Source of the DNA: Scytalidium lignicola
Taxonomy: Eukaryota > Ascomycota > Leotiomycetes
Direction of reading: 5' to 3'
NCBI GenBank assembly: GCA_002812745.2
Contig: NCSJ02000288.1
Coordinates: 1-55,001 of the forward strand
DNA length: 55,001 nucleotides
Each line of letters begins with the position of its first letter. Position 1 is the stretch's first letter. The position numbers and the translations under genes were made by a program. The notes beneath the pieces were generated by a model. The model searched no databases, had not been told where the DNA came from, and saw nothing but the letters and a program-made list of their open reading frames with translations. This document shows positions 4,961 through 52,539 of the stretch, one piece after another.

Positions 4961-5160
4961 ATATGTCAGTTCACCTGTAGCACGAAGTACAGTACGCAAT
5001 TATACGTAATATACTCGTTGTGCTATTCCATGGTTGTTCTACGATTAGGGGTAGGAGAGCGAAGCTGTAGGAGCTTCGCTCGTTCCCACTACCTAATCAG
5101 GACTAGCCTACAGGGGCACGTGAATATCACGTGTACGTAACCACTATTCTACCAACAATA
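4961..5160. repeat. G+C-rich undecayed island with two hairpins
   Basis: Normal-composition DNA of about 200 bp with sharp A+T-rich edges. It holds an inverted repeat GAGCGAAGCT / AGCTTCGCTC (5,057-5,066 and 5,072-5,081) and a second one, CACGTGA / TCACGTG (5,117-5,123 and 5,127-5,133). Length and structure fit a small late-inserted element or an LTR fragment. No coding frame was seen. Confidence 0.5.
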
Positions 5161-10800: not shown

Positions 10801-11103
10801 TGTTATAAAACCTTTAATCACTAATACATAATATAAGCTTGGTCACTTTGTAATTTATCTATAAGAACAAGCTGATTAAAGTTTTATAGATAGTAAAGTA
10901 TATTGTAAAGTTATAACTTAAGTTGAATATAAAGTTCTTAATTAAAGCTTAAAGAGTATATTCTTATATAAACAAAATATAGTTAGTATAACCTTAATAC
11001 CCTTCTATATACCTTATACTACTTGTATAAGTCATATAACCTAACATCTTGTTGATTATGAACATTTTATAAACTGTTACCTAGTGTTTATTAAGTTATA
11101 ACA
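10801..11103 (-). repeat. RIP-decayed LTR, family 2 (copy 2)
   Basis: TGTTATAAAA..TTATAACA, 303 bp, same orientation as 6,437-6,763 and 16,544-16,861. It lies between gypsy pol copies A and B and would be the 3' LTR of copy B. Confidence 0.7.
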
Positions 11104-31080: not shown

Positions 31081-32030
31081 GTAATATTAATCTTATAATT
31101 GTAAATAGTTAATATATATAGTATTTGAAGAATAAATATACTTATATAGAAGTATTGATTATAAATAAGTTAATAATAGTATTTAGTAAGTTTAATATAA
31201 TAAGTATATAAATAATATATGCTTGAAATAAGTGTATTTACTATTATTATCTTGAATAATGATAAAAAGAGTTATATCTTGTTAGTATATATTTAATCTA
31301 TAACTAATTTAAAGTAAAGTTATACTCTTCTCTTTAATATTAATAATAGCTTGTTAACTTATTTATTATCTTTAGTATATGTTATTTATATTTATCAGAT
31401 ATACTTATGAGTAAGAACTTATCTAAGATTATAATTTAGAATAAGATTTAAAATATTATTAATATATATAATGTGATTGTTAGAGTATATACTTATTATA
31501 ATGGTAATTATAACTATTAATATTCATAACTCTAGCAATTGTTAGATTATCAAAATTAGCATGTGTAAAAGACATGTTAAGTATATGCTAAATGAATATT
31601 AATATCAACAATTATCTTATACAACAAAACTGATGAAATGCATTAATTGTAAAATATATATAAATAGTTTACAATATGTTGAAGTTGTTGTTTGTGATAA
31701 GAATCAACCTTTATAATAAAAGCTTTTTTTAAGAGTCTTGTGTATGCTTAGCATATGCCTTGCAAATGCTTGGTAAGCAAATATAATAAACAAAGTAATA
31801 TGTATATACATTAATCGTTAGCAAACATAATAAATGCATATACAAGTTATATATATACATAAATTCAACTTTTAGATTGTAATACTTAAAGTACAAAGCC
31901 TATTAATATAAATAAGATATTGTTTAGTTTGCTATTATTGGATATATATAATCTAAGCTTATAACTAATGTTTATAACTTATTAAAATAATAGATATCTT
32001 ACTTATATGTCTTGCATATGCACTGTATAC
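31081..32030. other. A+T-rich sequence without recognisable content
   Basis: Last part of the A+T-rich block. No domain, repeat end or RNA gene was recognised. Composition changes within a few tens of bases at about 32,030. Confidence 0.6.
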
Positions 32031-34352: not shown

Positions 34353-35678
34353 TCAAACGGGAGGGGGCCCGGACCACCAATTCTTGATTCTCTCCCAAGC
34401 AGATGATACCACTGCAAATGAACTAGCTAGTTCCTCTTTGTGTAATTGCAGAAATAGAAGGCTCATCTGTTTTGCGATATTGAGCCATTCAAGTATCTTG
34501 TCAGAAAGGCTGGGCTCTAAGTTTTGAGGCGCACCGACGACTGGCTCTTCCTCTGGAAGAGGATCGTTCTTCCCAAGAAGTAGAGTTCTGTTTCTATATA
34601 TCTCTAGCCTTGTGTCTTCCGTGACAGAATTGAGGACTTTTGCCGCCTCGGTCTCACGCCAATCAGTGCCTTTAATCATCTCCTCTTGAATTTGTAGTCC
34701 CGTAGCGTTGATGGAACTGTATCTGCGATGGATAAACTCCCTCGCCTTAGATATCCTCTGCAATTTACCCTGCTCCGTGCTCTCGCGTAATTGCCTGTTC
34801 GATTTTCCACATATCTCAATACCGTGATTATACACACACCCTCCAATGTACTTTGAAGGGGGTTCTAAAACCGGCATAAGATAGTCTTCCTTCAATTTCT
34901 TTAGCGTCTCTCGTGAACGTGTAACATCATCGGGATGCAAGGCATCCCATTTCGTTATAACAAATGAGATATTCTGATAGAAAAGTGGACCGCAAAAGCA
35001 TTAAGCATTGCAACCAGCGAAGAGTCTTGAGTTGAGATTCAGTCATGCGGTCCTGCTTTATGTCGTGCATGAACAGAATGCCACTGACGGTAACGAATGG
35101 CCCGAGTGCAGCTATGCAGCCTACAATATCTTCGAATACAAACATGTCCTTTAAGTCATGTGCACCAAATCCTGGAGTATCTACAAAGAGGTACTTCTCG
35201 CCGCTGACAATAGCAGGCCAAATCTCGTATTTCATGGTACCTGGAGAATTGAGGAGGTGGTTCATTGGATTCTATTGGGGAAGATCGTACCTGATTTCAA
35301 GGTTTTCCCAACCTTCAGTACTCCGCCAGTAAGTTCTTGGAGGAAAGTTGTCTTTCCAGTACCAGTTTAACCAGCGACAAAGATAAGCTTTGTCCCCCGA
35401 AGACTAGGTACAAGTCAGTCAATTATAATCGCATATTGCAATGTCAGAGTCGTATACTGCTTCTGGATGAATCGCATTACTGCATAAGTAGCCACACCTT
35501 GAGTAGCATCTAGCAGCTTTGCTAGCTCCTTAATACGCCAAGGAGAGCTCTTGTTCAATTCCACTTCCGCATCATCTTCACTATCATCTATTTCCTCAAA
35601 ATAATGTGCCTCCTCAATGGGATCTCCTTCTGGCTTGTTGATGACATCTTTCCCTCCGAGTTCGACAATAGCAGCCAT
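34353..35678 (-). pseudogene. Broken P-loop GTPase-like gene
   Basis: Four-part minus-strand gene: exon 1 35,678-35,458, intron 35,457-35,404, exon 2 35,403-35,291, intron 35,290-35,241, exon 3 35,240-34,353. Exon 1 is acidic and of unknown function. Exon 2 has the Walker A/G1 motif, but TAA at 35,367-35,369 interrupts it (F-V-A-G-stop-T-G-T-G-K-T-T). Exon 3 has G3, V-D-T-P-G-F-G. The frame shifts by one base near 34,997-35,006 after L-R-W-L-Q-C; the next frame continues F-C-G-P-L-F then V-I-T-K-W-D, the G4 region. This resembles fungal AIG1/septin-like single-domain GTPases. With two lesions it is probably a pseudogene; the stop is what RIP would make from CAA, and the frameshift could be a sequencing error. 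Function unknown. Confidence 0.65.
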
Positions 35679-37944
35679 TGTGATTGTCTACCAGTTGATA
35701 AGAAATGGTTGAATATTCAGAAAGCCTCCGAAAGTATATAATATATTCCAGTTAGCTCAAACGTGACGTCTAAAGGAATAGCTTAAAAATATCCAAAAGC
35801 AATGATTTGAAGTAGTAAAAGAAAGGTATCACTTACAGCAGTCCGTAGAAGGCGTGGCTATAAGTACACATTACCCTGGCAAATGCCATCCGCTTAAAAT
35901 ATTTTTGGTACAATTTATTGGTCCTGGATTTCTCTAGTTTGAAAGTTACCGTAACCTAGATGAACAACTGGAGGAAGATCAACCGGCTGTGAAACCCTCC
36001 CCTCTGTATGAAGTCCTGACAGCTCAGCCTCGCAGTCTCACCCTGCTAAAATTAGTTCATTTTCTCGAACTGGACTACTGTTTAACCCCTTTCACTCCAA
36101 CCAACTTCCCAACATATATTTGACCGTCTGAAATTATTTTTTGATTAGCCAGGGAAAGATGATAAGGCTCCCTTAGCAGGCATACAAAGTATTTTTAATA
36201 AATTAAGCGCCTGGTTCGTGTAACCGCACGCAGACCAACAATCAACAACCAACAGACCAACGCAAGGCAAGATATGGTCTAATATTGTATTCAACATGGG
36301 ATAACGCTGATTCTCAAGTGTTTGAGTGTGCTAGCCTGCATAGGAGCACAACCCACAAGTTTTGTCTCTAAGAGGTATGGTCTTTATACCCCCATAAGCC
36401 TTATAGTGACGCTCTCATAAATATGGTTGCCTGAGGCGCTGAACAGCGCCTCAAAATGCTAAGCGCCGAGAATTATATATGTTGAACAGGCTACGGCTAC
36501 TGTTATCATTGGTACGTACGCGAACAGTATGAATTTCAACTATCAAAAACAACTAGCTAATAACAGCTACAGCTGGGGAAATACACCCATATCATATACG
36601 CACCTGTAAACGTACGTTTCATGTGAAAATGTCTCACAGGTATGATAATTGCCCCGACTCCGACTCTATGACTTCATATGGCTTTTGCCATGGCTTGTCA
36701 CGTGAGTGTATCAAATACCTGAGGCTACAACACCTTTAAATGATCGAAAGTAGAACTAGTACGATAGGACTCTGAAGAGAAGGGATTAATCCCTTTTTAA
36801 TCACAGCAATATATCGTAATACTTTTACGAAATGATCGGCTGTAGAGTCATCACTGAACAGCATTACCGGGTTTAACTTGTGCTACATATATTTAGCGAG
36901 GAAGTTGCTCCTTCAAAAAAAAANGGGACGGCTGAATGAGCCTATCACTAGTCCGTATAACGGTTAAATTATGAGTTTGGTTGAGCTCGAAGTCGTGCCA
37001 AGCAACAAGGTCATAAGGCTAAAATTTTAGATATATCGAAGAGAGACAGCTTAAAGGAGATTGCTCAGTCTGTTGAACTGAAATCGAAAAGGTTAACTAA
37101 TAATCTGTACGGGATTTTGATTTGACTCTTATCTTTATCAAGCCCCTTACGGTTAAAGTAGGACTGATCTTTCGACACAGCGGCACTTAAGTGGGAGGAG
37201 ATGAGCGAGCTTAGTGCTTTCATAAGCAGAATCAAGACAGCAAGAGGTTAGGAATCGGAAAGGATTGTGAGTGTTGCTGGTAGAGAATGGAGAAATCATG
37301 GATTACCGTTTTAAGCCTCTTATACATATGTTCTGGCATATACTTGAATTTGCACATTTGAAGATTGTCATGGCTAAGCTTTCTTCAGGACAATTCTCTG
37401 TTGTTAAACCTAAAGACTAATTAAACCAATTAAATACCTATTTTCTTCAACATTACAACTCATTATAAGTGTTAGTTCCTAATTTTAGTACTTCGATACA
37501 CGATAACTTGAGTGGCCTTTGAAATTCAGCTAGAGTGAGGGTATCAAAACAAACGCCGAATTTCTATTACGCAATCTTATGCAAGTGCAGGGTCTCCAGT
37601 TTCAAACGAGTATTGTGACTTGTTATATTGACAAACTCAATATCATAGAAATATGCGTTTATTAATAAACGCTTATTAAAGCTATTTGTAAATTGGTTTA
37701 AAATTAAAGGGTATAACTTTAATATAATTCAATGATCATATTTTCTGCATGCTACAAAGACAAATCTTAATACCTAAACAGGGTGTATGTACTTTCCAGC
37801 CAAATATCTTATTCTATTACCAAACGCAAACCAACAATCTGTACCATATAGCTGCTATATTAAGTATATCATTACAGTCTATAGGCAAGTAAGTGGTGTT
37901 CTATGTATAAAGTCTAGTATACCTCGATTTTCATTGTTAAAGAA
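35679..37944. other. Intergenic DNA, no supported gene
   Basis: 2.3 kb with no credible frame. Contains a hairpin at 36,433-36,452 and an N beside an A run at 36,924. A+T-rich patches near 37,660-37,760 may be short decayed repeats. Confidence 0.5.
36433..36452. repeat. Perfect 9-bp inverted repeat
   Basis: GAGGCGCTG, spacer AA, CAGCGCCTC. A further GCGCC word follows at about 36,463. No following T run and no adjacent gene end, so not an evident terminator. Confidence 0.6.
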
Positions 37945-39420
37945 TTAAGAACGCTCTTTTGCCTGTCTCTGCTTCCGCCACTCCAATCCTTTTCTCATTT
38001 GCAAAATAATAAACCCCAAGCTGAGTATCATAATTCCAGCAATCAAAGTGAAAGTCCAACCTGCCCCTATTGCATGCACAACTGGCAGTACCCCAGCTGT
38101 TCCTCCAGCTCCCATTAAACACCTTGCCAAATTCAGTGCCGCTGTTGCAGATGCACTCTTCTTCGGGAATAGGTCTACTAGGAACGTATTTACAACCCCG
38201 ATAATTGAGGTCGCCGACCAACCTATGACGAATGTACAGATAATGGGGACTGAGATGTGGACATGATACCTCACAGTCCAGCCAAACACCAATGAAGCGA
38301 TTGTCTCAAGGGCACTCCACAGCCATATTGTTCTAAGTCGAGCGTGCTCTAGAGGAAAATCATCTGGATTACCATCAAAATCGTTCTTGAACTTCCGGTA
38401 TTCATAGTCAAGAAACTTTCCAGTGGTAAGAGTTCCAACAATACATCCAACCCCATTTCCTATGAAAGTCAAACCGATCTGGAGTTCGCCAAGACCATAC
38501 GTCTCCTTAAAAAGTGTTGAGATCATCGCAACAACCATCTGCCAGACTGTATAATAGATAGAGAGAAAGATGATCGAAAATGTAACCTCGATGCTGAGGA
38601 TTATATTGATTGGTCCAAGGAAATCAACGGGAAGTTTTTTGCCAAACGAGGAAGAAGTTTCGGTTCTTGTAAGAGCTGCCGAATCAGTTCTATGATGACG
38701 GTGATACATATAAGCCCACAAAGAGTTTGATAGGCCCTTAGCCGGGCGCGACCCATTGCCCACGATGGAGCGCAAGGTCTCAGGTAGGACCACGGTCAGG
38801 AAAACTAGAAAGGCTACACCATAAATGGTCAGAAACCAAAAAATCGCCCGCCATCCCAGCGTCTGCGAAAATATACCACCAAGGATCGGGCCAATGGCGA
38901 CAGGTCCAAGCAGTCCGGCTTGGTAGATACCCATATATCCTCCTCTTTCCTCCCTACTCGTAATATCGCCCACGACGCCGGCACCGATAGCGATTGTACT
39001 TGCACTACCTACGCTCTGGAGACACCTCAATATTACCAACTGATAATAGTGCTTCGTCTCAGCGAGTCCAATACAGGCGCCGATAAACACAACGAAAGTG
39101 CACATATACGTAACTCTCCGGCCATGAACATCTGCGACAGCACCCCAAATTGTAGGCGAGAGGCCTTGCAAAACCATATAAGAGGTCACAGTGAGGTTGA
39201 TCAATTCAGCTGAGACCGCAAGATCTTTGGCCAGAGTTGGGATGGCGGGAAAGTAGATATTAGAAGCGAATGCCGAGAATGTGGCGGCGACGGAGACGAT
39301 GGTTATGATCACCGCCTTTTGTCGGGAGGTGTAGATGCTATATGGAACTGGAACAGCAGGTTCGGGAGCAACATCTTCCGACGATTTGTCGCCGACGACG
39401 CCCGCTTCAATGTCTGTCAT
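37945..39420 (-). CDS. MFS transporter, DHA1 family, citrate-exporter-like
   Basis: Intronless, 491 aa, start ATG at 39,420. A hydrophilic N-terminus of about 35 residues is followed by hydrophobic segments typical of a 12-helix MFS carrier. Motif A is at residues 93-105 (G-A-V-A-D-V-H-G-R-R-V) and motif C at about 169-182 (A-G-L-L-G-P-V-A-I-G-P-I-L-G-G). The N-I-Y-F-P-A-I segment and G-V-V-G-D-I-T-S-R-E-E-R-G are characteristic of the DHA1 branch that holds the Aspergillus citrate exporter CexA and Qdr-type pumps, and from memory the resemblance to CexA is close. Expected at the plasma membrane as a proton antiporter. As first gene of the group it could export or import a tricarboxylate; a multidrug role is the alternative. 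Confidence 0.85.
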   Translation of the reverse strand: MTDIEAGVVGDKSSEDVAPEPAVPVPYSIYTSRQKAVIITIVSVAATFSAFASNIYFPAIPTLAKDLAVSAELINLTVTSYMVLQGLSPTIWGAVADVHGRRVTYMCTFVVFIGACIGLAETKHYYQLVILRCLQSVGSASTIAIGAGVVGDITSREERGGYMGIYQAGLLGPVAIGPILGGIFSQTLGWRAIFWFLTIYGVAFLVFLTVVLPETLRSIVGNGSRPAKGLSNSLWAYMYHRHHRTDSAALTRTETSSSFGKKLPVDFLGPINIILSIEVTFSIIFLSIYYTVWQMVVAMISTLFKETYGLGELQIGLTFIGNGVGCIVGTLTTGKFLDYEYRKFKNDFDGNPDDFPLEHARLRTIWLWSALETIASLVFGWTVRYHVHISVPIICTFVIGWSATSIIGVVNTFLVDLFPKKSASATAALNLARCLMGAGGTAGVLPVVHAIGAGWTFTLIAGIMILSLGFIILQMRKGLEWRKQRQAKERS

Positions 39421-40891
39421 TTTCTGTAATTAGATCCTGAGAGATAAATCAAATGCATTTTAAAGGATATCAGAGAGAGGATGTTTGGAAATCGCGACAC
39501 AAGACTGGTGAGAGTGGGGCAGATTCCAACGTCTTGCCGATGATCGGACATAGATAACTGGGCCTCTGCTAAACGGTGTTGATAACACAAGTTAGGAAAT
39601 AACCAAGCATATACCAGGTTTCGGAATCTTGCCTCAGTCTTGAAAACGAGATTATAATTTCTGTTACGTGTTATGAAGTATGCGGGTTATATTGTATTCA
39701 TCTAAAGTTACACTCCATCATATTTTTTTGTTGTAGTTGACAAAAAGGAATGGTGTAATTGGCTATGATACGAAGATATCCACTTTTTATACGAGGTACG
39801 ACATCATTTTGTATCAACAATGCGCACTTACACGATGTTTTCAGATTTCGGGATATTCAGTTGGCCTTCCTCCATTGCAACGAATCCGTGACAAAATCGG
39901 GAAAGGCTGTTAGGATGTGATGGAAGTGAGATTCACAAGTCCGTCAAATACAATACGATACCACAAGCAAAGCTTGCTGCTCGCTCCGCTCGTAGGTGGG
40001 TGCTTCGCACCTTTTAGTGCACGTGATATATCATTACATAATTAGCCTCCTTTTCTTTCAACCACCTTCTTTATATGAACTTAAAATAGTAATATAACAA
40101 TGGATTTGGCTATAACAAATTATAAAGAAGTTATTTTAGTTTCAGTATGATAAAAGGAATAATAACTTCAGTTCTCTTTCAACAATATAACTATAACCAT
40201 TCTTAGTACTATTATGATATAGAATTTTCAGATGATGAAGCAACCCTGATTAACTTTGTGTAATCTTACAACTATGGTATGGCGTTGCCTCCTATCCAAC
40301 CAGATGATCTGATATGCATTTTCCTGGTGACAGACACCCTTCGCTATTCGACGAGTAGAGGGTGAGGAATGCTACTTATTATGTCATATGCGCTTTTTAA
40401 GTATAGGGCGACGTTCGGCGATGCTGTGAGGAAATGGATAGATCTAGTACCTCCGTACAGGAAGCGGGTATTGCCCTAGCCTAATGAGCGTCTGTTGGTG
40501 GATTATTAAAAGGTATTCTCAGAGCAATCTGCTCTTATTTAGCTTTTCTTTGAGGAATGGAAAACGCTATTTTTGGTTTATTGTTCCTGTCAGCGGAATA
40601 TATAAGTGTGGGCTGGAATTTTTATAGGATAGATTGGTTCCAGGATGCAGTTCATAATGTATACTCTCATATTATTTAACCTCGGTATGTTAATGTCCGC
40701 ACATACATTATGACGGAAATTTTGGGCCCGCTTCTAATTTAGCCGAATAGAACAAGCTGTATGTATAATGCACTTGCAGTAACGGTAACACAACATAATA
40801 AAAATCAACAAATGGAGAGCTGTTATAAGAATTTCCTTTCATATAATCAAAGCCGAATTACACAGAATTATTAAAGGTCATACGAGGCTCT
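39421..40891. other. Divergent intergenic region with an A+T-rich wedge
   Basis: Separates the MFS gene from the carrier gene. 39,963-40,015 holds short inverted words, including the hairpin GGTGC-TTC-GCACC at about 40,000-40,012, and 40,020-40,260 is A+T-rich like decayed repeat DNA. CCG-ATGAT-CGG lies at about 39,537-39,547 and CGG-N11-CCG at 40,714-40,730, both possible Zn2Cys6 sites. Confidence 0.5.
40340..40670 (+). pseudogene. Possible protein-coding remnant, unidentified
   Basis: A frame from about 40,375 reads protein-like for some 40 residues (A-L-F-K-Y-R-A-T-F-G-D-A-V-R-K-W, then P-N-E-R-L-L-V-D-Y) before and after stops. It may be a fragment of a transposase or of a lost gene. I do not recognise it. 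Confidence 0.2.
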
Positions 40892-42006
40892 ATGAGCGAA
40901 CCAAATGTCTCGACCACTTCCATCTCAAATGCTCCAAAACGAAAGTTAGCGGAAGCTAGAAAAGTATGCTTCTTATTCTTAGTATACAAGACTTATGCTC
41001 ATTCAATATCTCCAAGGCTCCTGTAACTCCAATCCAGTCTTTAGTTGCAGGAGGCACAGCTGGAGGGATAGAAGCAGCGATAACAGTATAACAACCTAAG
41101 TTCCTCATAATCAGATTTCTCTATATGCATAAGATATTAAATCGATCTCAGTATCCGTTTGAGCTCGCCAAGACACGCCTCCAGCTCCGTAGCGATGCAA
41201 GAGGTACCAGGAACCCATTAGTCCTGATTCGACAAATCGTGGTATCCGAAGGGATTGGGAGTTTATATACAGGATGCTCAGTGCTAGTGTTGGGAACCAT
41301 TTGTAAAGCATCAGTGAGATTTCTTACGTTTGATTATATCAAGAATGCTCTCGCGGACGACAAAGGGCGGCTTTCAACTTCAAAGGGAATACTGGCTGGG
41401 ATGGCTGCCGGCTGTGTCGAAAGCGTAGTAGCAGTGACGCCGACGGAAAGGATCAAGACAACATTGTTAGTCGCCTAGAGTGGAAACCTGCGTTGAATCA
41501 AATGTTGACCATTATCATAATCCATTAGAATTGACGATGCAAGAGGTCCAAACCGTCTCGGAGGTAATTTTCTACGCGCCTCACGGATGATCGTTGCAGA
41601 GCAAGGTTTCCTCGGGCTCTATCGTGGCCTTGTGCCCACGACTATGAAGCAATCTGCTACAGTTGCCGTGCGAATGGGATCATATAATGGAATTAAAGAA
41701 GGATGTAAACATCGTAATATCCCGATCAACGGAACAACAGCATTCCTCATGGGTGCCACGGCAGGGACAATTACGGTCTACGCCACGCAGCCATTTGATA
41801 CTATCAAGACACGAGCTCAAAGTACTGGAGGGGAAAGACTAGGTCAAGCTGTTGTAGAATTGTTTCGCGAGGAGGGGATCAGGACTTTCTGGAAGGGCAG
41901 CACGATGCAATTGGGGAGGTTGATGTTGAGCGGAGGGATTGTATTTTCGGTGTATGAGAAGGTTATAGACCTTATGTCTTCACCAGGAGCTAGCCTACGC
42001 TCTTAA
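40892..42006 (+). CDS. Mitochondrial tricarboxylate (citrate) carrier, SLC25 family
   Basis: Four exons: 40,892-40,963; 41,017-41,085; 41,152-41,465; 41,529-42,006. All introns are GT..AG, 53, 66 and 63 nt, and the joined frame gives 310 aa, the family length. Three carrier repeats each have the signature P-x-D/E-x-x-K/R: Y-P-F-E-L-A-K-T-R (residue 48), T-P-T-E-R-I-K-T-T (about 142) and Q-P-F-D-T-I-K-T-R (about 239). The wording of these motifs matches the citrate carrier CTP1/SLC25A1, which exchanges citrate, isocitrate or cis-aconitate across the inner mitochondrial membrane. MttA and Fum11-type carriers of fungal clusters belong to the same branch. It precedes the aconitase gene by about 500 bp on the same strand. 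Exact substrate cannot be read from sequence. Confidence 0.88.
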
Positions 42007-42179
42007 TTTACTTTCGGGATAGAATATTTCCGTCTTATTTAGAGGTACAGAGTTTTACAATATATATAAATTGAAATTGCCAGTCTTTTATGTGTCAGCA
42101 TTCAGGGTTAGGGATAATTTCATCAAGCATTGATTCCCCGCCATCTTACATTCATATGGCGGGATTAAGTTGTCCGCCT

Positions 42180-42195
42180 CGGGTTGTGCCTACCG
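42180..42195. promoter_or_regulatory. CGG-N10-CCG, candidate Zn2Cys6 site in aconitase promoter
   Basis: CGGGTTGTGCCTACCG, inverted CGG triplets with a 10-bp spacer, about 320 bp upstream of the aconitase ATG. CGGCCG follows at 42,293-42,298. The same spacing occurs upstream of the regulator gene. Binding is inferred. Confidence 0.35.
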
Positions 42196-42513
42196 CGTTT
42201 GCGAATGAGTGATTATTGAGGAGCAACATGGCATCTTCAATGTGATGATCAAAGTTCATCTGATCGAACTATAATTAAAATCGCATAATCATCGGCCGGT
42301 TATCGAGGGAGTAGAAAAAAGAGAACCGAGTAACCGAACTAAGCCGATGATTACATCTTATTGGGCGATAAGTGGTGTTCAAACAGCCGTAGAAAATATC
42401 TACGAGATTCCCCAAGGCCTAGAGACGACGCTCAGGAACGCGCCGAACTGGTACAAGTTATCTCTCACAACTTGGTCGGTAGAAGAGGTATTTTCTTGAC
42501 CACGGCTAGGAAT

Positions 42514-45043
42514 ATGCCCCTCAAGTCTCTTCCTCTTCGCCTTCGGAGGCAATGGCGACATTTTCCAGGTGTTGTAAATAGCTATGGTCAAAGGTTAAGC
42601 CTAGCTACCGTGCAATCACCGAACCTAGACACCCCAGCCATGAGTCGATTTGAACCAGATCGCTATATAGATTATGAGAAACTGGACAGGAACATCCAGA
42701 TTGCGCGAGACCATCTTCGCCGGCCTTTGACCTATGCCGAAAAGGTCATATATGGCCATCTCGACAAACCCGAGACAGCAAGAGATATTGTCAGAGGCCA
42801 GTCGTATGTTAAGGTCCGACCAAGTCGGGTAGCACTACAGGATATATCTGGCCAGATGGCCCTTCTCCAGTTCATGACGGCAAACCTAGACACAGTCACA
42901 ATCCCAACTACGCTTCATTGTGACCACCTTATTATTGGCAATAAAGGACATTCAGTTGATCTACCGAAATCTGTCAAAGAGAGTAAAGAGGTGTTTGATT
43001 TTTTGCGTAATGCTTGCTCTAAGTACAGCATCGGGTTCTGGAAGCCTGGTTCAGGAATCATTCATCAGGTCGTGCTCGAGAACTACGCTTACCCTGGTGG
43101 TCTTATGTTGGGAACAGATTCACATACACCAAATGCAGGTGGCCTAGGAATGGGAGCAATTGGTGTGGGTGGCGCAGATGCTGTTGATGTTATGGCTGGA
43201 TTGGCATGGGAGTTGAAGCTCCAAAAATCATAGGAGTCCGTCTCAGTGGAAAGTTGTCTAACTGGGCATCACCAAAAGGTGCGAGTAAAAGCTTTCTTGT
43301 GGCTGATATCAACTTCTATTTCGGCTGACTACAATCCAATATAGATGTGATTTTAAAACTCCTTGGAGAGCTTACAGTGAGAGGCGGAACTGGGGCCATT
43401 CTAGAATACTTTGGACCAGGAGTAAACAGCATATCATGTACTGGACAGGCTACCATCTGCAATATGGGTACAGAAACTGGAGCCACAACATCAATTTTCC
43501 CATACACCGAGTCTATGGGTAAGTATCTTGAGATAACTCGTCGGGGATACCTCCGGAATAGTGCAGAACGACGAGCACATAACCTTCGCGCAGATGACGG
43601 TGCTGAGTATGACTCTGTATTTGAGTTAGACCTCTCTACACTAGAACCATATATCAATGGCCCGTGGACACCAGATCTCTCTACTACCAACTCGAACTTC
43701 GCTCAAGTAGCAGCCGAAGCAAGTTGGCCGTCTCAACTCTCTGCAGGGCTGATTGGCTCCTGCACCAATTCTTCCTATGAAGACATGACACGAGCTGCAA
43801 GCCTTGCCAAACAGGCCCTAGAAGCCGGGATCAAGCCAAAGATTCCACTCTACATATCTGTTGGGAGTCAACAGACGCAACAAACCCTAGAGGAAGAGGG
43901 AGTGCTCGAAGTTTTTGAGAAATTAGGAGGGACATTGCTAGCAAGTGCGTGCGGTCCATGTTCGGGTTCATGGGTCCGTGAAGATATCCAGAAGGTATGA
44001 TATCTTCTTTCCACTGGTATTGATATTAATCAATTTTTTGAATCTAGGGAACACCTAATTCTATCATCACATCGTATAATCGAAACTTCACTGCTCGCCA
44101 GGATGGAAATCCTGCCACTAGTACCTTCGTTGCATCCCCTGAGATGGTTGTAGCAAAGACCATTGCGGGTGACCTGCAATTTAACCCTATCAGTGACTCT
44201 ATAATGAGACCAGACGGTAAAAAATTCTTCTTCGTCCCCCCATCTGGAGACTCGGCCCCAGAAAGATACGAAAATGCAGATTCTGCATACACTCCACCGC
44301 CTCCAGAGAATGAGCGAAGCTCTCGGACGGTAGTCCTTCCCGAATATTCAGACAGGCTCCAGCGTCTCGTGCCATTTAAACCCTGGAATGGTCAAGATTA
44401 TGTGGATCTTCCAATCCTTATTAAGGTGAAAGGAAAATGCACCACTGATCACATATCACCTGGTGGGCCTTGGTTCCGCTATCGTGGCCATTTGGAGAAT
44501 ATCTCCAACGGCACACTAATTGGTGCCGTCAATGCAGAGAACAACGAAGTAAACCTAGTGCAGAATGTCTTCACAAGCGAATATGAAAGCGTCCCAGATT
44601 TAGCCAAAGACTACAAGCATCGAGGAGTGCAGTGGGTGGTGATTGCCGACCACAATTATGGTGAAGGCTCATCACGGGAACACGCTGCACTACAGCCGCG
44701 GTTTCTCAACGGTGTGGCAGTTATTGCTAAGAGTTTTCCTAGGCTGCATGAGTCCAACTTAAAGAAACAGGGGATGCTCCCTCTCACATTCGTGGACGAA
44801 GCTGACTATGATCGGATCAACTCCCGTGACCGAATCAGCCTTATTGGCCTCCAAGGACTTGGTCCAGGGACGAAAGTTAAGATGGTTGTGAAAGCAGAGC
44901 ATGGAAACACATGGGAATGCGACTTGGATCACTCATTTAATGAAGAGCAAGTGGAATTCTTCAAGGCTGGAAGTGCACTGAACTTCATGGGGTTGAAGGC
45001 AACTAGCCCTCCCAAATTACAGGAAGCATCGCCGTCATTATGA
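42514..45043 (+). CDS. Mitochondrial aconitase paralogue (one apparent frameshift)
   Basis: Exons 42,514-43,278, 43,345-43,994 and 44,048-45,043 (introns 66 and 53 nt, branch CTGAC at 43,325). About 803 aa if the shift is corrected. The first ~36 residues are Arg-rich without acids, a mitochondrial presequence; upstream in-frame codons have no ATG. Active-site markers: H-C-D-H-L-I (135-140), D-S-H-T-P-N (202-207), cluster cysteines 395, 458, 461 (the 63/3 spacing of mitochondrial aconitase), C-T-T-D-H-I-S and G-S-S-R-E-H-A-A-L. It isomerises citrate, cis-aconitate and isocitrate. Odd points: C-G-P-C-S-G-S-W replaces the usual C-G-P-C-I-G-Q-W, and N-F-T-A-R-Q-D replaces N-F-T-G-R-N-D. One base seems missing at 43,218/43,219 (W-E-L-K then, in the next frame, A-P-K-I-I-G-V). 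A cluster-specific paralogue is likely. Confidence 0.85.
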
Positions 45044-45459
45044 AACTAAATGGTCATGGAAAGAATTGATACTTCTGTCTTTCTTTGCAAGAGTAAATTC
45101 TGTGTTGTAACCTTTGCTATAAATGTTTTCCTGGTGGAATTTGGTGGGACCTTCAAAGGCACTCCCTTCTACTCTCGACATAAAGCTTTTGCTAAAAATA
45201 GAACGTATTATCTCACATATCTACTAGATCTCAATTATTATAAAAGAGTCACAAGCTGATTGAAATTTATTCCATTTCGTTACTATGTATCAGCAATCTT
45301 TAACCATGCTAGATGCCCTATGCAGTGTTTGGGTAGAGAACTGTTTTATAGGAGCCAGCACTTAATTGCGCGGCACCTGTGTGATTCTTCTACCTTTAGA
45401 TTATCCTTCTGCATTAACCCACTGTGGCCGAAAAATCCACAATACAGTACAGCAAATCC
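45044..45459. other. Convergent 3' region between aconitase and MFS permease
   Basis: 416 bp between two stop codons on opposite strands. It should hold both 3' UTRs. Short frames here have no support. Confidence 0.6.
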
Positions 45460-47308
45460 TCAGAGGATATATCTAAACATGATGTGATCATCATATACCT
45501 CTTCAAGAGACAGATGCGTATGTGGATGCACTTCCCCTCTTACCTCATACTCTAGAATGATCCAGTCCTTTCTCTTATTCGATCTATCCATCATGATATA
45601 AACCATGAACACCATGATCAAGCTAAGAGCGCTCATGGCTAGTAACACTGAGTGCCCCTTGATGAACCGCGGCGGTGTGGTGTAGATCTGCGTGCCAAAG
45701 ATCGAATAGCCTTGTGCAAATATTTCAGCAATGGCCCAAACAGTTGATCGTTTGGTATAACCGCCAGTGTTGTTGCTAATCCAAACCACAAAAAGGGTGA
45801 CTGATGGATAAGCCCCTACAGCAATCAAACAGGTCCCGAAAATTCGGACTTTGTTGTTGGTCACGGCAATCAGGATGACATATCCTATAATGGCGGCGGT
45901 GAGTGTGCCCATGAGGAAGACGCCTTTCTTATTGAGCCGATCAGACCACATATTAAGGACAACCATGGTGACTGCGGCACAAGCATAAGGAATGATGGTG
46001 AATAGTTGAGTGCGTACTGCGACGGGTTCATGTCAGCATCACGTAACACTACATATCCAGTCATCCAGCTAAGGCTTACAGGTAGAGTACCCAAATTCAT
46101 TGATGAAGGTAGGAAGGAAAGAGCCAACAGATCCAACGCTGAGACCTATACCCCCATTCATGATGGCAAACATCCATGTCTTGGGATCTTTCATTGCAAC
46201 CAGAACCTGCTTTGGATGGACCTTGAACCCGGGCGTATTGTAGGCTAAAGAAAATCAGCACGTGGCATATAAGCTATGATAGCGGAAGACACAAGAGAAG
46301 ACCGACTGACGGCCAATTGAATTTCTTCCTCAGTAAAAAGCCAGTGTTTTCCCTTGATCTGATCGGGGAAGGGTGGTAAGAAAACCCAAACCAGAATGCC
46401 GACAAATATTCCGACTACACCTTCAATAATATAGATCCATTGCCAGGCCGAATGGTGCGATTTCCCATCTAGGTCCTTCTGAACCCCATAGGAAATCAAA
46501 CCCGTTAAACCACCTGCCATCGTAGCAAAGAAATAATAGATGGCTATAGTTAATAGTGAGGTTAGAGATTAGGTACGTCGATACAACTACAAGCATGTTT
46601 CGTAGCTGAACTTACATGCACGAGTAGCTGCTTCATCACGCTTGTACCAGACACTACTATACATCCAAAGACCCGAGATCAAAGCATCCGTGAGACCAAT
46701 CAAGACACGGATAGCCGCCACAGTCTGCCAGTTGGGTGCGGCAGCAAGACAGCAGACACACACACCAAAGGAAACACAAGCTGCTCCAATTTGGTTGTTA
46801 CAGCCAACAATGCGAATGAGAAGATTGGATGGAAGCATAAGAGCACAATATCCGACGACTAGGTGGAATCAGAAGAGAGGTTCATAAGAATTCTTGCACA
46901 AATCAAACGGAGTTTACTCACAGAACATGGTCAAGCAGATAAAGTACTGGTGGTCAGTCATGTTTAATGCCTTCTGCATACCGGCAACACGTGCATTTCC
47001 AATATTGCTTCGGTCCTTTAGAAATGAATATGTTAGCTTTGTGATGGATAGGAATTTATGCTATTCTGCGACTTAATTATTACCATGTAGGCGATGAGGA
47101 AAACCATCGCGGCCAAGGGCAGGATCAGAAGATCCGCCTTCCAAGCAAGGCGACGCTCGGCATGTTTCTTGTGATGAGAGCCGCCAATCTCCAGACGGGG
47201 ATCGAATGCGACGAGGTCCTTATCTTTATGATGGAGAACCTGTTCGATATACTCGGTTTGGACAGCGATCGGCTTATTAGGCTCACGGAGTTCAGTTGCG
47301 GCAGTCAT
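45460..47308 (-). CDS. MFS permease, anion:cation symporter (Dal5/Tna1) family
   Basis: Six exons on the minus strand: 47,308-47,084; 47,015-46,922; 46,858-46,616; 46,543-46,307; 46,244-46,080; 46,016-45,460. Joined length 506 aa, the family size. The first helix ends in F-L-I-A-Y-M-D-R-S-N-I-G-N-A-R, the family signature, followed by S-N-L-L-I-R and W-Y-K-R-D-E. The C-terminus ends F-R-Y-I-L, also typical. Family members import allantoate, nicotinate, pantothenate, tartrate and other organic anions with protons. Intron 4 needs donor GTCGGT at 46,306 to keep frame; the better-looking GTCAGT four bases upstream would break it. Its start faces the TcuA-like gene across 491 bp, so the two probably share a promoter. 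Best candidate for uptake of the cluster substrate. Confidence 0.85.
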
Positions 47309-47799
47309 GGCTACTGCGTTGAACTTGCGCAGATTTCCTCGGGAGAGATGACACAGCCAGATGATTATGAGACGAACCTGAACCTGTCACAACTCTAGAT
47401 TTTCTATCTACGTGTTCCTTTCACCAGGGTGTGATCATGTCGGGTATTTACATGGACTAAGGTCTCGCAGGTCTCGCAGGTTGAAGTCCGACATCACGGC
47501 AACTCCCACTCCGCTATGGAGTTCCATCCTACATAGCATTCATTGTTCCCCCCATTCATCTCCCTTATGGGCATTATCGGCATAGAGACAGAGGATAGCG
47601 GTGTCGATTGAGGGATTGTGGAAATGCTGCCATGTCAATGCGTGACCTATTGGCTGATATATAAGATATTAATATATGCTTGCTTTTGTTGCGGACCCTT
47701 AATGATCTTGTGTAGCTCTCCTCGAGTCTTTCATTCAAGTGCTTCAATAGCACTACTACATGATAAACTTGATCTATTCCCGTGATTATATAACTATCC
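47309..47799. promoter_or_regulatory. Divergent promoter between MFS permease and TcuA-like gene
   Basis: 491 bp between opposed start codons. It contains a tandem GGTCTCGCA repeat at 47,461-47,479, CCG-N6-CGG at 47,488-47,499 and CGG-N11-CCG at 47,497-47,513 (overlapping), a CCAAT-type word (ATTGG) near 47,650 and a TATATAAGATAT element near 47,657 on the TcuA side. The overlapping triplets are candidate binding sites for the linked Zn2Cys6 regulator; this is inference. Confidence 0.45.
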
Positions 47800-49371
47800 A
47801 TGATGCAGGAGATCCGTGACTTTGACGTTATAGTCGTTGGCGGTGGCAATGCCGCCCTGGTGGCAGCTCTCACTGCCTACGATGCTGGGGCCCGTGTAGC
47901 TGTTCTAGAAGCTGCAAACAAGTCAGAACGAGGAGGAAACAGTCGCTTTGCTGGTGCGATCTTCCGAATCCCTCACAACGGACTCGACGATATCAAACCG
48001 CTTCTGTGCGAAGAAGCGCTGCCCAAGGCAAAGCGATGCACCGTTCAACCGTACACACATGAGGACTATGCTGCAGACATCATGCACACATCTAAAGGCA
48101 AGGCAGACCCGGGTCTGGTTAAGACTCTACTCGATAACAGCCGCGAGACTGTCAAGTGGATGCAGGAGAAGGGCGTTCACTGGCAGCTCACTCTGAGCAA
48201 GTTCTTCGAAGAGGACCAGATCGATAAAGGTGTGCTCGATATTCCAGCCGGTGTCGCCATGATGGCTGTAGGTGAAGGTGTCGGTCTCACTGATGACCTC
48301 TGGGCGGCAGTCGAGCGGACGTCTATCACCGTCTTCTACAGCACACCTGCCTCTGATCTGCTGACACTGGGCGACCATATCCTCGGCGTCAAGACGAGGC
48401 TTGCAGATGTTAACGCGGCATTCTACGGTCAAGTCATCCTAGCATGTGGAGGATTTGAGGCCAACCCAAGACTCAGACGTCAATTCCTGGGAGATGGATG
48501 GGACCTGGTTGTTGTACGAGGAACGCGCTTTAACACTGGATTAATGCTGGAGAAGGCGATTGCAGCCGGTGCTCAATCATTCGGCCACTGGGGAGGAGCA
48601 CACGCTACCCCCCAGGATTTAGATGCTCCAAGAATTGGAGATTTAAGAATGACAGATAAGAAGTCGCGCTACTCCTATCCCTTCGGCATCAGTGTCAACA
48701 TCCACGGGCTGCGCTTCATGGACGAGGGCGAAGAGCATTTTGGTCTCACATATGCGAAGACTGGTGCCGCAGTTGGCCGTCAACCAGAAACCAAAGCATT
48801 CCAGATCTTCGATCAGAAATGCTTGAATCTGCTTGAGCCACGCTACTCCACGGGTACGCCTGTTGTTGCAGACACCATGGTTGAATTGGCGACAAAGCTC
48901 GGAATCAATGTCACAAACTTTGTCAACACGGTCGATGAGTACAATGCTGCCTGCAACCCCATCCATCCATTCGATGCCCTTCATCTCGATGGTAACTCGA
49001 CCGGCAACAGCCTCGTGATTCTTAAGTCGAACTGGGCACTGCCACTTGACAAGGGACCATTTGTCGCATATGCAGTGACCGTTGGCATTACATTCACGTA
49101 CGGTGGTCTCAGGACAGATCCCAACGCCCAAGTTCTCAACAACGAGGGCAACCATATGTCTGGGCTCTGGGCCGTGGGAGAGATGCAAGGAGGGCTCTTC
49201 TACTTCAATTACCCTGGTGGAGCAGGGCTGACAAAGGGTGCAGTGTTTGGGCGGATTGCAGGGAGGCTTGCTGCTGAGAGGGCGAGGAAAATTGGGAAAA
49301 AATCAGAAGATTGCAAGACTATAGATGAGATCTTAAGTGTCACTAATATAAATTCAAATCCACATCCATGA
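47800..49371 (+). CDS. FAD-dependent tricarballylate dehydrogenase-like flavoprotein
   Basis: Intronless, 523 aa. The N-terminal FAD fold is at residues 8-36 (V-V-G-G-G-N-A-A-L at 12-20, E-A-A after the second strand, then R-G-G-N-S), and the C-terminal FAD contact is G-L-W-A-V-G-E-M-Q-G-G. It belongs to the fumarate reductase/succinate dehydrogenase flavoprotein superfamily. Its closest remembered relative is bacterial TcuA: shared landmarks are V-R-G-T-R-F-N-T-G, F-V-N-T-V-D-E-Y-N-A-A-C and V-G-I-T-F-T-Y-G-G-L. TcuA oxidises tricarballylate to cis-aconitate. No signal or mitochondrial peptide is evident, so a cytosolic location is likely. Bacterial TcuA passes electrons to TcuB; no TcuB-like gene is in the window. 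A related tricarboxylate substrate, or a ketosteroid-dehydrogenase-like role, cannot be excluded. ATG at 47,803 is an equal alternative start. Confidence 0.82.
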   Translation: MMQEIRDFDVIVVGGGNAALVAALTAYDAGARVAVLEAANKSERGGNSRFAGAIFRIPHNGLDDIKPLLCEEALPKAKRCTVQPYTHEDYAADIMHTSKGKADPGLVKTLLDNSRETVKWMQEKGVHWQLTLSKFFEEDQIDKGVLDIPAGVAMMAVGEGVGLTDDLWAAVERTSITVFYSTPASDLLTLGDHILGVKTRLADVNAAFYGQVILACGGFEANPRLRRQFLGDGWDLVVVRGTRFNTGLMLEKAIAAGAQSFGHWGGAHATPQDLDAPRIGDLRMTDKKSRYSYPFGISVNIHGLRFMDEGEEHFGLTYAKTGAAVGRQPETKAFQIFDQKCLNLLEPRYSTGTPVVADTMVELATKLGINVTNFVNTVDEYNAACNPIHPFDALHLDGNSTGNSLVILKSNWALPLDKGPFVAYAVTVGITFTYGGLRTDPNAQVLNNEGNHMSGLWAVGEMQGGLFYFNYPGGAGLTKGAVFGRIAGRLAAERARKIGKKSEDCKTIDEILSVTNINSNPHP

Positions 49372-49671
49372 ATTTGATATCAGTACCAAGGACCAAATTC
49401 TATAAACAGTTATTTCAACAATGTTTAACGCCTGATTTACTTAATATACTGTATGAAGTTAGCCACAACTAAGTTACTGCTATGTTTCAATTCACTTTAT
49501 TTATCAAAAATAAAACTATAGATTAACATAATGAAACTGAATTAACTTACCCTCTTTTAATAGCTAAAACATGTATGTATATGATTTAGGTAGATTTTAG
49601 GTCGCCTCTCTATTGGTGATCCATTCTATTCAGTAGAGCTCTGCGCTAAGTTAGCGTGCTGCTATAGGATA
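49372..49671. other. 3' flank of the TcuA-like gene
   Basis: A+T-rich 300 bp, presumably 3' UTR and spacer. No gene seen. Confidence 0.5.
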
Positions 49672-49889
49672 CTGTCGTATTCTAAACTTGCCTGTTTTTC
49701 GGTTAACCTCTGTGTAAACGTGTTTTAAGCAAATTTTCACATACAACATTAAATAAAATTTAATAAATTTTAAGTATAGAATTTTAAGTGTTATTATTTT
49801 AATTTATTGTTAATTAAGAAGTTGCAAAAAAACATGTTGCACAAAGACAATTTAGCGGGAAAAAAACAGGCAAGTTTAGAATACGTCAG
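49672..49889. mobile_element. 218-bp MITE with 28-bp terminal inverted repeats
   Basis: Left arm 49,672-49,699 begins CTGTCGTATTCTAAACTTGC; right arm 49,862-49,889 is its reverse complement with one mismatch in 28. TA flanks each end (49,670-49,671 and 49,890-49,891), the target duplication of Tc1/mariner-type elements. The interior is A+T-rich and non-coding. It ends about 115 bp before the first candidate ATG of the regulator gene, so it lies in that promoter. A full-length parent is not in this window. Confidence 0.85.
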
Positions 49890-49951
49890 TAGGACACGAC
49901 ATGTCATTCCAACAATCCATCGGGTTGTAATGTCCGATTAGGGGTGGACTG

Positions 49952-49967
49952 CGGGACGTCTTCTCCG
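49952..49967. promoter_or_regulatory. CGG-N10-CCG, candidate Zn2Cys6 site before the regulator gene
   Basis: CGGGACGTCTTCTCCG, 39 bp upstream of ATG 50,006, squeezed between the MITE and the gene. Same spacing as the site upstream of aconitase. Could mediate autoregulation; inferred only. Confidence 0.35.
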
Positions 49968-50005
49968 CAAACTTACGCATCTTTATTTTCCCTAAGACAT
50001 GATCT

Positions 50006-52539
50006 ATGTGGAGTGGAGACACCTCTTTCAATCAAGAGAGGTATCAATATCGGACTCGAACCTGCAGCAGCATTCGCACAGCAATGGACCGACAGCCCGT
50101 AGGAAGCCGGACCTCAGCTATGGAGGGTCGTGGTGGTCGCGAACCCCGTGAAGACCGTGAAGACCGTGCATGCAAGTATTGTCGGACCAGAAAGGTGCGC
50201 TCTTCACGTCCGACTGCGTACTAGATCTTATCGCGTATGGTTTGCTAATACAGTAGTGTAAAGATCAAATGTGACAGGGCGAAGCCTGCGTGTACGTCGT
50301 GTAAGAGCCACAGACGACCCTGCGTATATTCACACGAAACTGCAAGACCGAGGTAAGCTCGAGGATATCTGGCCCTTCTATATATTTTGCTCTGACTCTA
50401 TTTATTAGACCGTCATCTGCCCTAATAAAGGCTATAGAAAGCGATAAAAAGAAGATTGAGCAACTCTTGATACTTGTAAAGAACGCAGATCCGGAAAGGA
50501 GAGAGGCTCTCTTGGAAGAGATAGCTATCAACCAAGGCTCCGTCCAGATCCCAAATGATCAACTGTTATTCCTGAAATATTCAGACATTAGTTATAGGGG
50601 GAGCAACAACGAAGATCGTAATGCGACGTCCAGCACCTCTCAGCTATCCAAGGTGTCCAATAATATACGCAAAGATGAAGCAGAAGAGTTTGATCAAGAC
50701 TTATCGGCGGACATGTTAGACACATCTCCGTTTGTGTCAGTAGATGAGCAAGGCCATATAGGAATATTTGGACCCTCGTCTGGCTTCCATAACAACACAA
50801 ATACCTCGCAGAAGCTCGGGTCTTCCCCACAGGGGGTGCGGAGTGAGCTCATCGCCAATGCTGTAATTCAGCGCCAGAAAGAATACGAATTAATGAGACA
50901 TGGGGATTTTGATGGAGTTCCTGCAGAATTAGCAATCCATTTGCTGGACATTCACTGGAATCGGCAACATCACAGCTTCCTCCTTACCTACCGTCCTGCA
51001 TTTACAAAAGACTTGATGAATGGCGGTCCTTATTATTCCAGATTTCTCCTCAATGCAATCTTTGCAGCCGCTGCCAAGTACTCAGATCGCGTTGAACTTC
51101 GGGATGATCCAGCTGATCCCCGAACAGCTGGAGATAGTTATCTTCGGAGGTGTAAGCAATTATTGACCGAAGATCTCATCTTCGAGCAATCAACCATTCC
51201 AACTATCGTCGGTTTACTTCTCCTTGGATCAGCTTGCGTCTCGCGAGGAGAAATCTCAAAAGGTTGGATTTACACAGGTCTGGCTACACGAATGGCATAT
51301 GATCTTGGATTACATTTAGACGTCCAAAAACCAAGTCTAAGGCCAGAAGATATGGAAATTCGACGGAGAGTATTCTGGGGAACCTTCATTTCAGACAAGC
51401 TGCAAAGTTTATACATGGGTCGACCTGTTTCCATTCAGCTACGTGACAGCCAGGTCTCGATTGAACTGCTCGATACCATGGAAGAGTTGGAGCTGTGGAG
51501 CCCGTACGTCGATACGAAACTCCCTACAGCTACTCAGGGCTCTTTCGAACCGATTCCAATATACTCAATCTCAACATTCCAGCAACTCTGCCTCCTATCT
51601 AAACTTATGACTCGCATAATCAACCGCTTCTATTTCATTGGTGCTCAAGCTTCAGATGCACAAGCCAGTCTTCAGGTCCTAGACCGAGCTCTTGTCTCGT
51701 GGTACAAGAATCTACCATCATCACTTACCTTCCAGCCATGGTCGTCCGACTGGTCCATTGCAAGCAAGGCGGTCACCCCAAATATCATGATCTTGCATAG
51801 TACGTACCACTCACTAGTGATCCTGCTCCATCGACCATTTATTTCAGACGGCCACTTACGATCCAAGTCACCACCCGCAGATTCATGGAAGACGTGTTCA
51901 ATGGCTGCGAGCAACATTACCAGCGTTATCAGCCGCTGGAAAGAAATCTACACGCTACGTAGAGCCCCATACCTCATAGGCTACACGGCGTATGTAGCAT
52001 GTACGATCCACGTGAGAAATGCAGCGCTGCAAGCTGGAGAAAAGAGTCATATCATGTTACTAACGACATTGGGTATGTTGAAGGAACTAACCACGACAAA
52101 TCCCGGGCTACAAGGCACAGAAAAACTCATCAGGAACCTGATGAGGGTCAATGGTGTAGGAGAAATCCCAGGTAAATTCTCTATTCAATATTTGTGTGTA
52201 AAAATTTCCCATCTAGACTAACAGATTCAAATCACCCTGTTAGCTCCATCTCCAAGTCGATCCGTTGACACATTATTTACACTTGATGTGGGCGCTATCG
52301 TGCGCATGTTTCCGGATCCGTTGGCCCAGTCTCAGTCTCAGGATCAGTACATCGATCCACAGCTCCAGAGTCGTCATGATGCAGGAGGGTCAAGTGCACA
52401 TGGCTACAATGCCAATAATCCCGCTCTTTTTGAGCAAATGGCTAATGAGTCCGGGTGGAATGATTTCTTGACGGGGTTTTGGACTGCGACAACAGATGCA
52501 GATATGCATTTGCAGCCATATCCTGAGGCTGTAGAGTGA
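50006..52539 (+). CDS. Zn2Cys6 transcription factor with fungal-specific regulatory domain
   Basis: Exons 50,006-50,194, 50,264-50,352, 50,409-52,171 and 52,244-52,539; 778 aa from ATG 50,006, or 752 aa from ATG 50,084. The Zn2Cys6 cluster is C56-x2-C59-x6-C66-x6-C73-x2-C76-x6-C83, split by intron 1 just after R-T-R-K. A basic stretch and a short coiled-coil-like helix follow (about 97-113), a common arrangement for a dimer binding spaced CGG triplets. The Fungal_trans domain covers about residues 260-520 (marker R-V-F-W-G-T-F-I-S-D-K, then M-G-R-P). Intron 3 uses acceptor TTAG at 52,243, because the nearer CAG at 52,229 leads to a stop. Nuclear activator, probably of the neighbouring genes. 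A MITE lies in its promoter. Confidence 0.88.

Follow-up and report, generated by a model that had tools for sequence, protein, structure and literature searches.

A Scytalidium lignicola gene cluster around a TcuA-like flavoprotein: a candidate organic-acid catabolic locus with apparent relatives in the same genome

TcuA of the Salmonella tcu system (tcuR, tcuABC) oxidises tricarballylate to cis-aconitate, according to the accessible part of the sources (Lewis and Escalante-Semerena 2006; PMC10468695). A similar grouping of genes is found in the fungus Scytalidium lignicola, on a contig (C208) whose entire 55,001 bp are the window analysed here. A flavin adenine dinucleotide (FAD) dehydrogenase of the same superfamily, scoring above the cut-off of profile NF006130, is encoded side by side with transporters and a regulator, and its product would be an aconitase substrate. 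Unlike tcu, the C208 cluster has a regulator of the Zn2Cys6 family and additionally codes for a mitochondrial carrier and an aconitase. Its enzyme lies outside the clade of proteins encoded next to TcuB (33–37% identity, 24 distinguishing alignment columns), five other genomes having stood in for the Salmonella protein in this comparison, and TcuB was not found in the S. lignicola genome. The trans-aconitate system of Bacillus velezensis (TarA, TarB, TarR; PMC11495376) also combines an inducible regulator, a major facilitator superfamily (MFS) importer and a step into cis-aconitate but, in the portion of that report available, this step is carried out by an isomerase of the PrpF superfamily rather than by a flavoprotein dehydrogenase, and mitochondrial steps are not part of it.

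The closest relatives of the C208 flavoprotein are found in bacterial loci with gene company of tricarboxylate type (PrpF, PrpD, TctC, aconitase- and lyase-family genes). Their transport and regulation families are unrelated to the fungal ones, PrpF is missing from the C208 cluster, and no report on the function of these bacterial loci was found. The itaconate clusters of Aspergillus terreus and Ustilago maydis arrange a mitochondrial tricarboxylate carrier, an MFS protein and a regulator around an aconitate-handling enzyme; they are biosynthetic and code for decarboxylases and an isomerase. The C208 cluster shares their carrier, MFS protein and regulator, and has a TcuA-like flavoprotein and an aconitase in place of the decarboxylases and isomerase.

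There is about an even chance that S. lignicola has four related loci for organic-acid catabolism under common control and that the C208 cluster is one of them, operating a route of import, oxidation and mitochondrial hydration. A plasma-membrane MFS protein would import a polycarboxylic acid from which the cytosolic flavoprotein, derived from an actinobacterium-like donor, would remove two hydrogens beside a carboxylate, giving an unsaturated acid of aconitate type. The CTP1-type carrier would pass this product on to the mitochondria, and an accessory aconitase dedicated to the pathway may hydrate it there for the tricarboxylic acid cycle. The Zn2Cys6 regulator would induce the set through CGGN11CCG and CGGN10CCG sites. 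The cluster probably serves a tricarboxylate or a branched dicarboxylate, a substrate class indicated by the neighbours of the bacterial relatives together with the fungal carrier and aconitase. A tricarballylate-like tricarboxylate is the most likely substrate and a branched dicarboxylate a possible one; tricarballylate itself is an unproven guess that rests on a family name covering more than one subfamily.

A reading of the window from its sequence only had announced six adjacent genes, and profile searches and exon models found all of them at 37,945–52,539. Four are clean models or single open frames; for MFS transporter 2 the junctions are approximate, and the aconitase frame contains one break. 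The cluster genes and the CGG-pair sites between them are as follows.

37945–39420, minus strand: MFS transporter 1, DHA1-like, 491 aa, single exon (PF07690, 165 bits)
40683–40699: CGGN11CCG site in the gap between MFS1 and carrier, ~0.2 kb from the carrier start and 1.3 kb from the MFS1 start
40714–40730: second CGGN11CCG site in the same gap (CGG-pair scan)
40892–42006, plus strand: CTP1-type mitochondrial carrier, 310 aa, exons 40892–40963, 41017–41085, 41152–41465 and 41529–42006 (PF00153, clean GT-AG model)
42160–42176: CGGN11CCG site upstream of the aconitase (CGG-pair scan)
42180–42195: CGGN10CCG site upstream of the aconitase (CGG-pair scan)
42514–45043, plus strand: mitochondrial-type aconitase, introns 43279–43344 and 43995–44047, break near 43216 (PF00330, PF00694, TIGR01340 pieces, tree)
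45460–47308, minus strand: MFS transporter 2, weakly TIGR00893-like, 5–6 introns, junctions approximate (weak PF07690/TIGR00893 matches)
47497–47513: CGGN11CCG site in the gap between MFS2 and flavoprotein (CGG-pair scan)
47803–49371, plus strand: TcuA-like FAD flavoprotein, 522 aa, single exon, no obvious N-terminal leader (NF006130 464.5 bits, PF00890 126 bits, trees, predicted structure)
49921–49936: CGGN10CCG site upstream of the regulator (CGG-pair scan)
49952–49967: second CGGN10CCG site upstream of the regulator (CGG-pair scan)
50084–52539, plus strand: Zn2Cys6 regulator, 752 aa, exons 50084–50194, 50264–50352, 50409–52171 and 52244–52539 (zinc cluster, PF04082 120 bits)

Relatives of this set recur within the 46.85 Mb genome. 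A profile search with NF006130 gave three TcuA-like genes over the cut-off, on contigs C355, C84 and C208. A search with 583 aa of one regulator exon retrieved relatives on C355 (54% identical), C84 (49%) and C25 (45%), after which scores drop from 523 to 205 bits. Each of the three TcuA-like genes lies within ~6 kb of a member of this four-member Zn2Cys6 family, the distances being 5.4 and 5.8 kb for the two outside the window; on C84 an unrelated-looking 599-aa reading frame stands between the two genes. Under random placement, the probability that two of the three other regulators lie within 10 kb of the other two TcuA-like genes is ~2.5e-6, with a 10-kb limit that was set after the distances had been seen. 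Duplication of a linked pair is an alternative to repeated assembly of the loci, and the pairing has been kept either way. The C355 locus (~76–92 kb) codes, besides the TcuA-like protein and the regulator, for MFS, Amidohydro_2, DUF1932 and class II aldolase proteins, an enzyme set that we take to be reminiscent of bacterial aromatic meta-cleavage enzymes. At C84, SDR, carrier, alpha/beta hydrolase and MFS genes are found beside the pair. The C25 locus (1–16000), where no NF006130 match figures among those listed in the genome search, codes for an SDR protein 62–75% identical to that of C84, an Ldh_2 dehydrogenase, a 3-hydroxyisobutyrate-dehydrogenase-type protein, a carboxymuconolactone decarboxylase (CMD) family protein and an MFS protein. 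C208, C84, C355 and C25 are apparently four related co-regulated loci.

Two further observations concern the same genome. A fourth TcuA-like gene, below the cut-off, is present at C305 32931–34399; it is broken by several stops and its pieces are 51–64% identical to the C208 flavoprotein. The surrounding 10 kb (27000–36999) hold only three reading frames of at least 110 aa. The C25 locus also gave a weak metallo-beta-lactamase match.

The four loci have CGG-pair sites in common. In a first scan of seven intergenic stretches CGGN11CCG was found in five. The convergent gap between aconitase and MFS2, one of the stretches lacking the site, was then left out because no gene has its 5' end there, and seven upstream regions of C84, C355 and C25, with ends set by hand, were added after the pattern had been seen; five of these carry it. 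This Gal4-spaced site is thereby present in 10 of the 13 upstream regions, compared with a mean of 0.575 in dinucleotide-shuffled sequences, and none of 400 shuffles reaches 10 regions for CGGN11CCG or for any of 63 combinations of spacing and orientation. The regions that carry it serve five of the six C208 genes. CGGN10CCG is second commonest (6/13) and is present upstream of the C208 and C84 regulators, twice in the former case. The four C208 upstream regions contain 4 CGGN11CCG sites, whereas the rate found in 38 other loci used as controls (together 152,861 bp, with some overlap) predicts 0.42. In these controls CGGN11CCG occurs 20 times and other spacings from 4 to 32 times, while in six cluster loci plus the end of the window the respective numbers are 26 and 2 to 14. 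The sites are putative targets of the Zn2Cys6 regulator. The utilisation cluster that the earlier reading had proposed is therefore apparently co-regulated, as judged from the paralogous loci and the shared upstream sites, and its parts would suit a path in which a tricarboxylate is taken up, oxidised, imported into mitochondria and hydrated; the proposal of tricarballylate as its substrate stays unproven. Note that the longer pattern CGGN4TCAN4CCG occurs at 155 places in the whole genome, not above its reversed control (168), with at least three occurrences at C25 2,810–10,376 and at least two at C84 24,615–27,249 among the matches listed. Promoter 10-mers shared between the loci were set aside as a common signal, those shown being mostly A+T-rich.

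The flavoprotein scores 464.5 bits against NF006130 (cut-off 369) and 246.4 bits against TIGR02485, which misses that profile's cut-off of 372.55. Bona fide TcuA was defined by adjacency to TcuB, for which 18 bacterial genomes were searched with TIGR02484; five gave a match over cut-off and nine any match. The same profile had no match in the S. lignicola genome translated in six frames with introns ignored. In the five genomes 16 proteins pass NF006130, of which five adjoin TcuB (689–732 bits) and 11 do not (449–599 bits), so that the family name alone gives no substrate. Two trees were built, one of 78 rows (every third of 80 bacterial loci and 30 of 120 listed proteins) and one of 57 rows from which the long branches L152, L153 and L156 were removed. 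The five TcuB-adjacent proteins form a clade of their own in both, on a branch of length 2.0 with 100/100 support in the 57-row tree. The C208 protein belongs to a clade in which every named member is fungal (100/99), and this clade is joined to actinobacterial proteins at 100/99 in both trees. An Armatimonadetes protein stands next to the joint group in the 57-row tree only (100/96), where the actinobacterial set as a single clade is weakly supported (67/52). Identity of the C208 protein is 51–57% to the actinobacterial set, 40–41% to the C355 and C84 paralogues, which are 64% identical to each other and form a second, separate branch, and 33–37% to the TcuB-adjacent set. The 24 columns, which include two gaps in TcuA, distinguish at least 17 of the 18 fungal and actinobacterial members from every one of the five TcuB-adjacent proteins. 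The identification of the enzyme as TcuA acting on tricarballylate was not supported by these comparisons: its filing as TcuA was dropped because the clade, TIGR02485 and TcuB tests failed, and the diagnostic columns differ as well. A bacterial, actinobacterium-like origin of the fungal clade is probable and the simplest reading of the trees, whose drawn root is no proof of it.

The predicted structure of the flavoprotein (predicted local distance difference test, pLDDT, 79.3; predicted template modelling score, pTM, 0.82; five stretches under 50) matches the folds of urocanate reductase (6t86), flavocytochrome c3 and ketosteroid dehydrogenase. In this model comparison urocanate reductase, flavocytochrome c fumarate reductase and 3-ketosteroid dehydrogenase have the same fold at ~17–24% identity. 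The C208 residues differ, as aligned, from those of fumarate reductase at the positions that we take to be its substrate positions.

The genes found around bacterial relatives bear on the substrate class. Of 565 loci encoding a relative 80 were taken, with flanks of up to 7 kb, and 79 used (L106 was lost). Neighbours include TctC in 28 loci, PrpD family proteins in 24, PrpF, aconitase family proteins and CoA-transferase III in 10 each, 2-hydroxyacid dehydrogenase in 8 and Ldh_2 in 6; within 600 bp the numbers are 14 (TctC), 10 (PrpD), 5 (PrpF), 3 (aconitase), 3 (CoA-transferase III), 1 (2-hydroxyacid dehydrogenase) and 4 (Ldh_2). Pfam confirmed one representative of each neighbour family and the others are phmmer matches, some of them weak. 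PrpF is directly adjacent on the same strand in L059, L060 and L065, the three loci closest in sequence to the fungal protein; it overlaps or follows the TcuA-like gene there, with gaps of -39, -3 and 41 bp, and in L059 the next gene after PrpF is of the phosphoenolpyruvate (PEP) mutase/isocitrate lyase family. PrpF matches of S. lignicola are located on C555 and C645, outside the C208 cluster. PrpF proteins isomerise aconitates or methylaconitates, according to the accessible parts of the sources (PMC5690661; for aconitates also PMC11495376).

The citrate-type mitochondrial carrier proposed from the sequence was borne out. The two exons scanned hold one and two PF00153 (Mito_carr) stretches, and three PX(D/E)XX(K/R) motifs, in the form in which we assume the motif, were read in the sequence. 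The best relatives among the 120 listed are 60, 62 and 64% identical and named tricarboxylate transport protein. In a search with the last 158 aa, the nearest paralogue in the genome is the carrier of the C84 TcuA-like locus (55%), followed by one on C367 (45%). The Zn2Cys6 identity of the regulator was likewise confirmed, by a CX2CX6CX6CX2CX6C zinc cluster in a clean four-exon model together with PF04082 (Fungal_trans). The best NCBIfam match of MFS1 is TIGR00710 (Bcr/CflA, 104 bits), under the cut-off of 200.9. The two MFS2 exons scanned score 20 and 23 bits with PF07690 (cut-off 33.4); one exon scores 20 bits with TIGR00893 and one is 24% similar to the MFS gene of the C84 locus. We presume that MFS2 is Dal5-like.

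The aconitase, with its broken frame, was scanned as separate pieces; these score 314.9 and 424 bits with TIGR01340, whose cut-off of 825.35 applies to the whole protein. The motifs GSCTNSS and ACGPC, which we take to be the cluster-cysteine motifs of aconitase, are present. Eight genes of the genome were placed in a tree from which shorter aconitase-family matches were left out. Four are of mitochondrial type (C208, C427, C270 and C83) and four are distant. The C208 protein groups with one from Xylogone (100/100), apart from the C427 copy, whose branch is short and lies close to housekeeping-like proteins from other fungi, in a poorly resolved region of the tree. The C208 aconitase is apparently an accessory paralogue. 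Its frame has a single break, near 43,216, apart from two GT-AG introns. Indels are the usual error type of Ion Torrent sequencing, and the break may be a sequencing error since the assembly consists of Ion Torrent data. The view that the gene is clearly dead was given up in light of this assembly and of a full-length relative listed from Xylogone (P0122, 798 aa, 88% identical, covering 99% of the query). The public models B7463_g10284 and g10285 (window 40892–45043) are both named 'partial' and one of them fuses carrier and aconitase domains.

A number of observations weigh against a catabolic tricarboxylate cluster. Other fungi were compared through lists of 120 relatives each for flavoprotein, aconitase and carrier. 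In Xylogone sp. PMI_703 the flavoprotein orthologue (77%) is on a contig of 5,548,043 bp and the aconitase orthologue (88%) on another of 3,954,366 bp, while the 120 carrier relatives listed include none from Xylogone. By eye, no contig common to the flavoprotein list and the aconitase and carrier lists was recognised. The aconitase and carrier lists have, again by eye, only the window's own contig in common. One flavoprotein among the relatives listed (P0001, 90% identical) is encoded on a contig of 54,745 bp. On co-location elsewhere, by which the sequence-only reading was to be judged, the picture is mixed: related loci recur within the same genome, but the two Xylogone orthologues sit on separate contigs. 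The three upstream regions without CGGN11CCG are all those of regulator genes (C208, C84 and C355), and the aconitase frame is broken as assembled. The C208 flavoprotein, outside the TcuB-adjacent clade, is without the K-R pair of that clade at columns 315–316. Among the bacterial loci 30 of 79, some on short contigs, lack every one of the counted families; the aconitase-family matches include weak ones, and the counts were made without a random-locus control. TctC is very common in Betaproteobacteria, and sets of PrpF, aconitase- and lyase-family genes also serve branched dicarboxylates.

This last point leads to the unlikely reading in which the flavoprotein acts on a branched dicarboxylate (e.g., alkylsuccinate to alkylmaleate) and the aconitase hydrates the product. 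PrpF, aconitase-family and PEP-mutase/isocitrate-lyase-family genes, the neighbours of the bacterial relatives, are also in keeping with the dimethylmaleate branch of nicotinate degradation, and the fungal clade is without the two positive residues of TcuB-adjacent TcuA; a mitochondrial-family aconitase with normal-looking cluster-cysteine motifs and a CTP1-type carrier, however, both suit tricarboxylates. The pathway might instead run in the opposite direction, the carrier exporting mitochondrial cis-aconitate, the flavoprotein reducing it to a saturated tricarboxylate in the cytosol and the DHA1-type MFS protein secreting the product. Because the nearest folds of the flavoprotein model are reductases the direction of the reaction is not fixed, MFS1 resembles efflux families (TIGR00710 best, below cut-off) and the layout of carrier, MFS protein and regulator is that of itaconate clusters. 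Such export is nevertheless quite improbable: it has less need of a second, weakly importer-like MFS protein and of an accessory aconitase, the enzymes of the sister loci (amidohydrolase, class II aldolase, CMD, Ldh_2) are of catabolic type, and no reductant partner was identified.

Another source of substrate would be the catabolism of aromatics from tannin, gallate or lignin, the four loci representing branches and C208 handling a tricarboxylic ring-fission fragment, oxalomesaconate- or aconitate-like. The Amidohydro_2, class II aldolase and DUF1932 genes near the C355 TcuA-like gene and the CMD-family gene of C25 are in line with it, as are the origin of the strain from oak leaf litter (PMC6256649) and a report that A. 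niger converts gallic acid to cis- and trans-aconitic acid (Watanabe 1965, known here through its citation in PMC10512348). We consider this unlikely as well: the six C208 genes include no ring-cleaving enzyme, one having been looked for in that set only, the amidohydrolase and aldolase are named at superfamily level, and the MFS, carrier and aconitase set needs no aromatic source. That the six genes are chance neighbours with no common function would agree with the separate Xylogone contigs, but the upstream sites common to the cluster and its three sister loci and the joint recurrence of regulator, flavoprotein and carrier make this very improbable.

A wider form of the catabolic tricarboxylate reading is tentative, and we hold it as possible with less than an even chance. 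In it, four paralogous clusters would form one fungal regulon, every cluster having a regulator copy of its own that reads CGGN11CCG/CGGN10CCG; in three of the four loci they would be built around bacterial-type TcuA-like dehydrogenases, that of C208 at least having been acquired by horizontal transfer. The system would do without TcuB, being coupled instead to a mitochondrial carrier and an aconitase of its own, and would let the fungus burn saturated or trans-type tricarboxylates by a new route, perhaps using those set free from tannin-rich litter.

No fungal cluster for tricarballylate or aconitate utilisation was found among the open-access papers listed, judged by titles and abstract starts, nor was a paper found there on AN2608, the A. 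nidulans FGSC A4 homologue of the flavoprotein (58% identical). If correct, the proposal would describe a route for a TcuA-type substrate in a fungus for the first time, so far as the open-access literature searched goes, and it offers ready-made tests in one regulator, one enzyme and one defined DNA site. The trees also suggest that the label 'tricarballylate dehydrogenase TcuA' is attached to a large subfamily, found in bacteria and fungi, that branches apart from the TcuB-coupled enzyme; many substrate annotations in databases would therefore be unsupported. With 11 of the 16 NF006130 proteins not beside TcuB, the name TcuA looks over-applied.

Outside the cluster, reading frames on the minus strand at window positions 34353–35271 contain a VDTPGFG motif and look GTPase-like by eye, the two frames tested having no Pfam match. 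The draft genome, of a strain from oak leaf litter, consists of Ion Torrent PGM data, with reads archived as SRR5434225 (PMC6256649). In the window, bases ~1–31,000 have about 20% G+C and adjoin the gene-bearing part of 40–50% G+C in which the cluster sits. The low-G+C stretch (1–31000) resembles what we take to be the repeat-induced-mutation deserts of filamentous ascomycetes.

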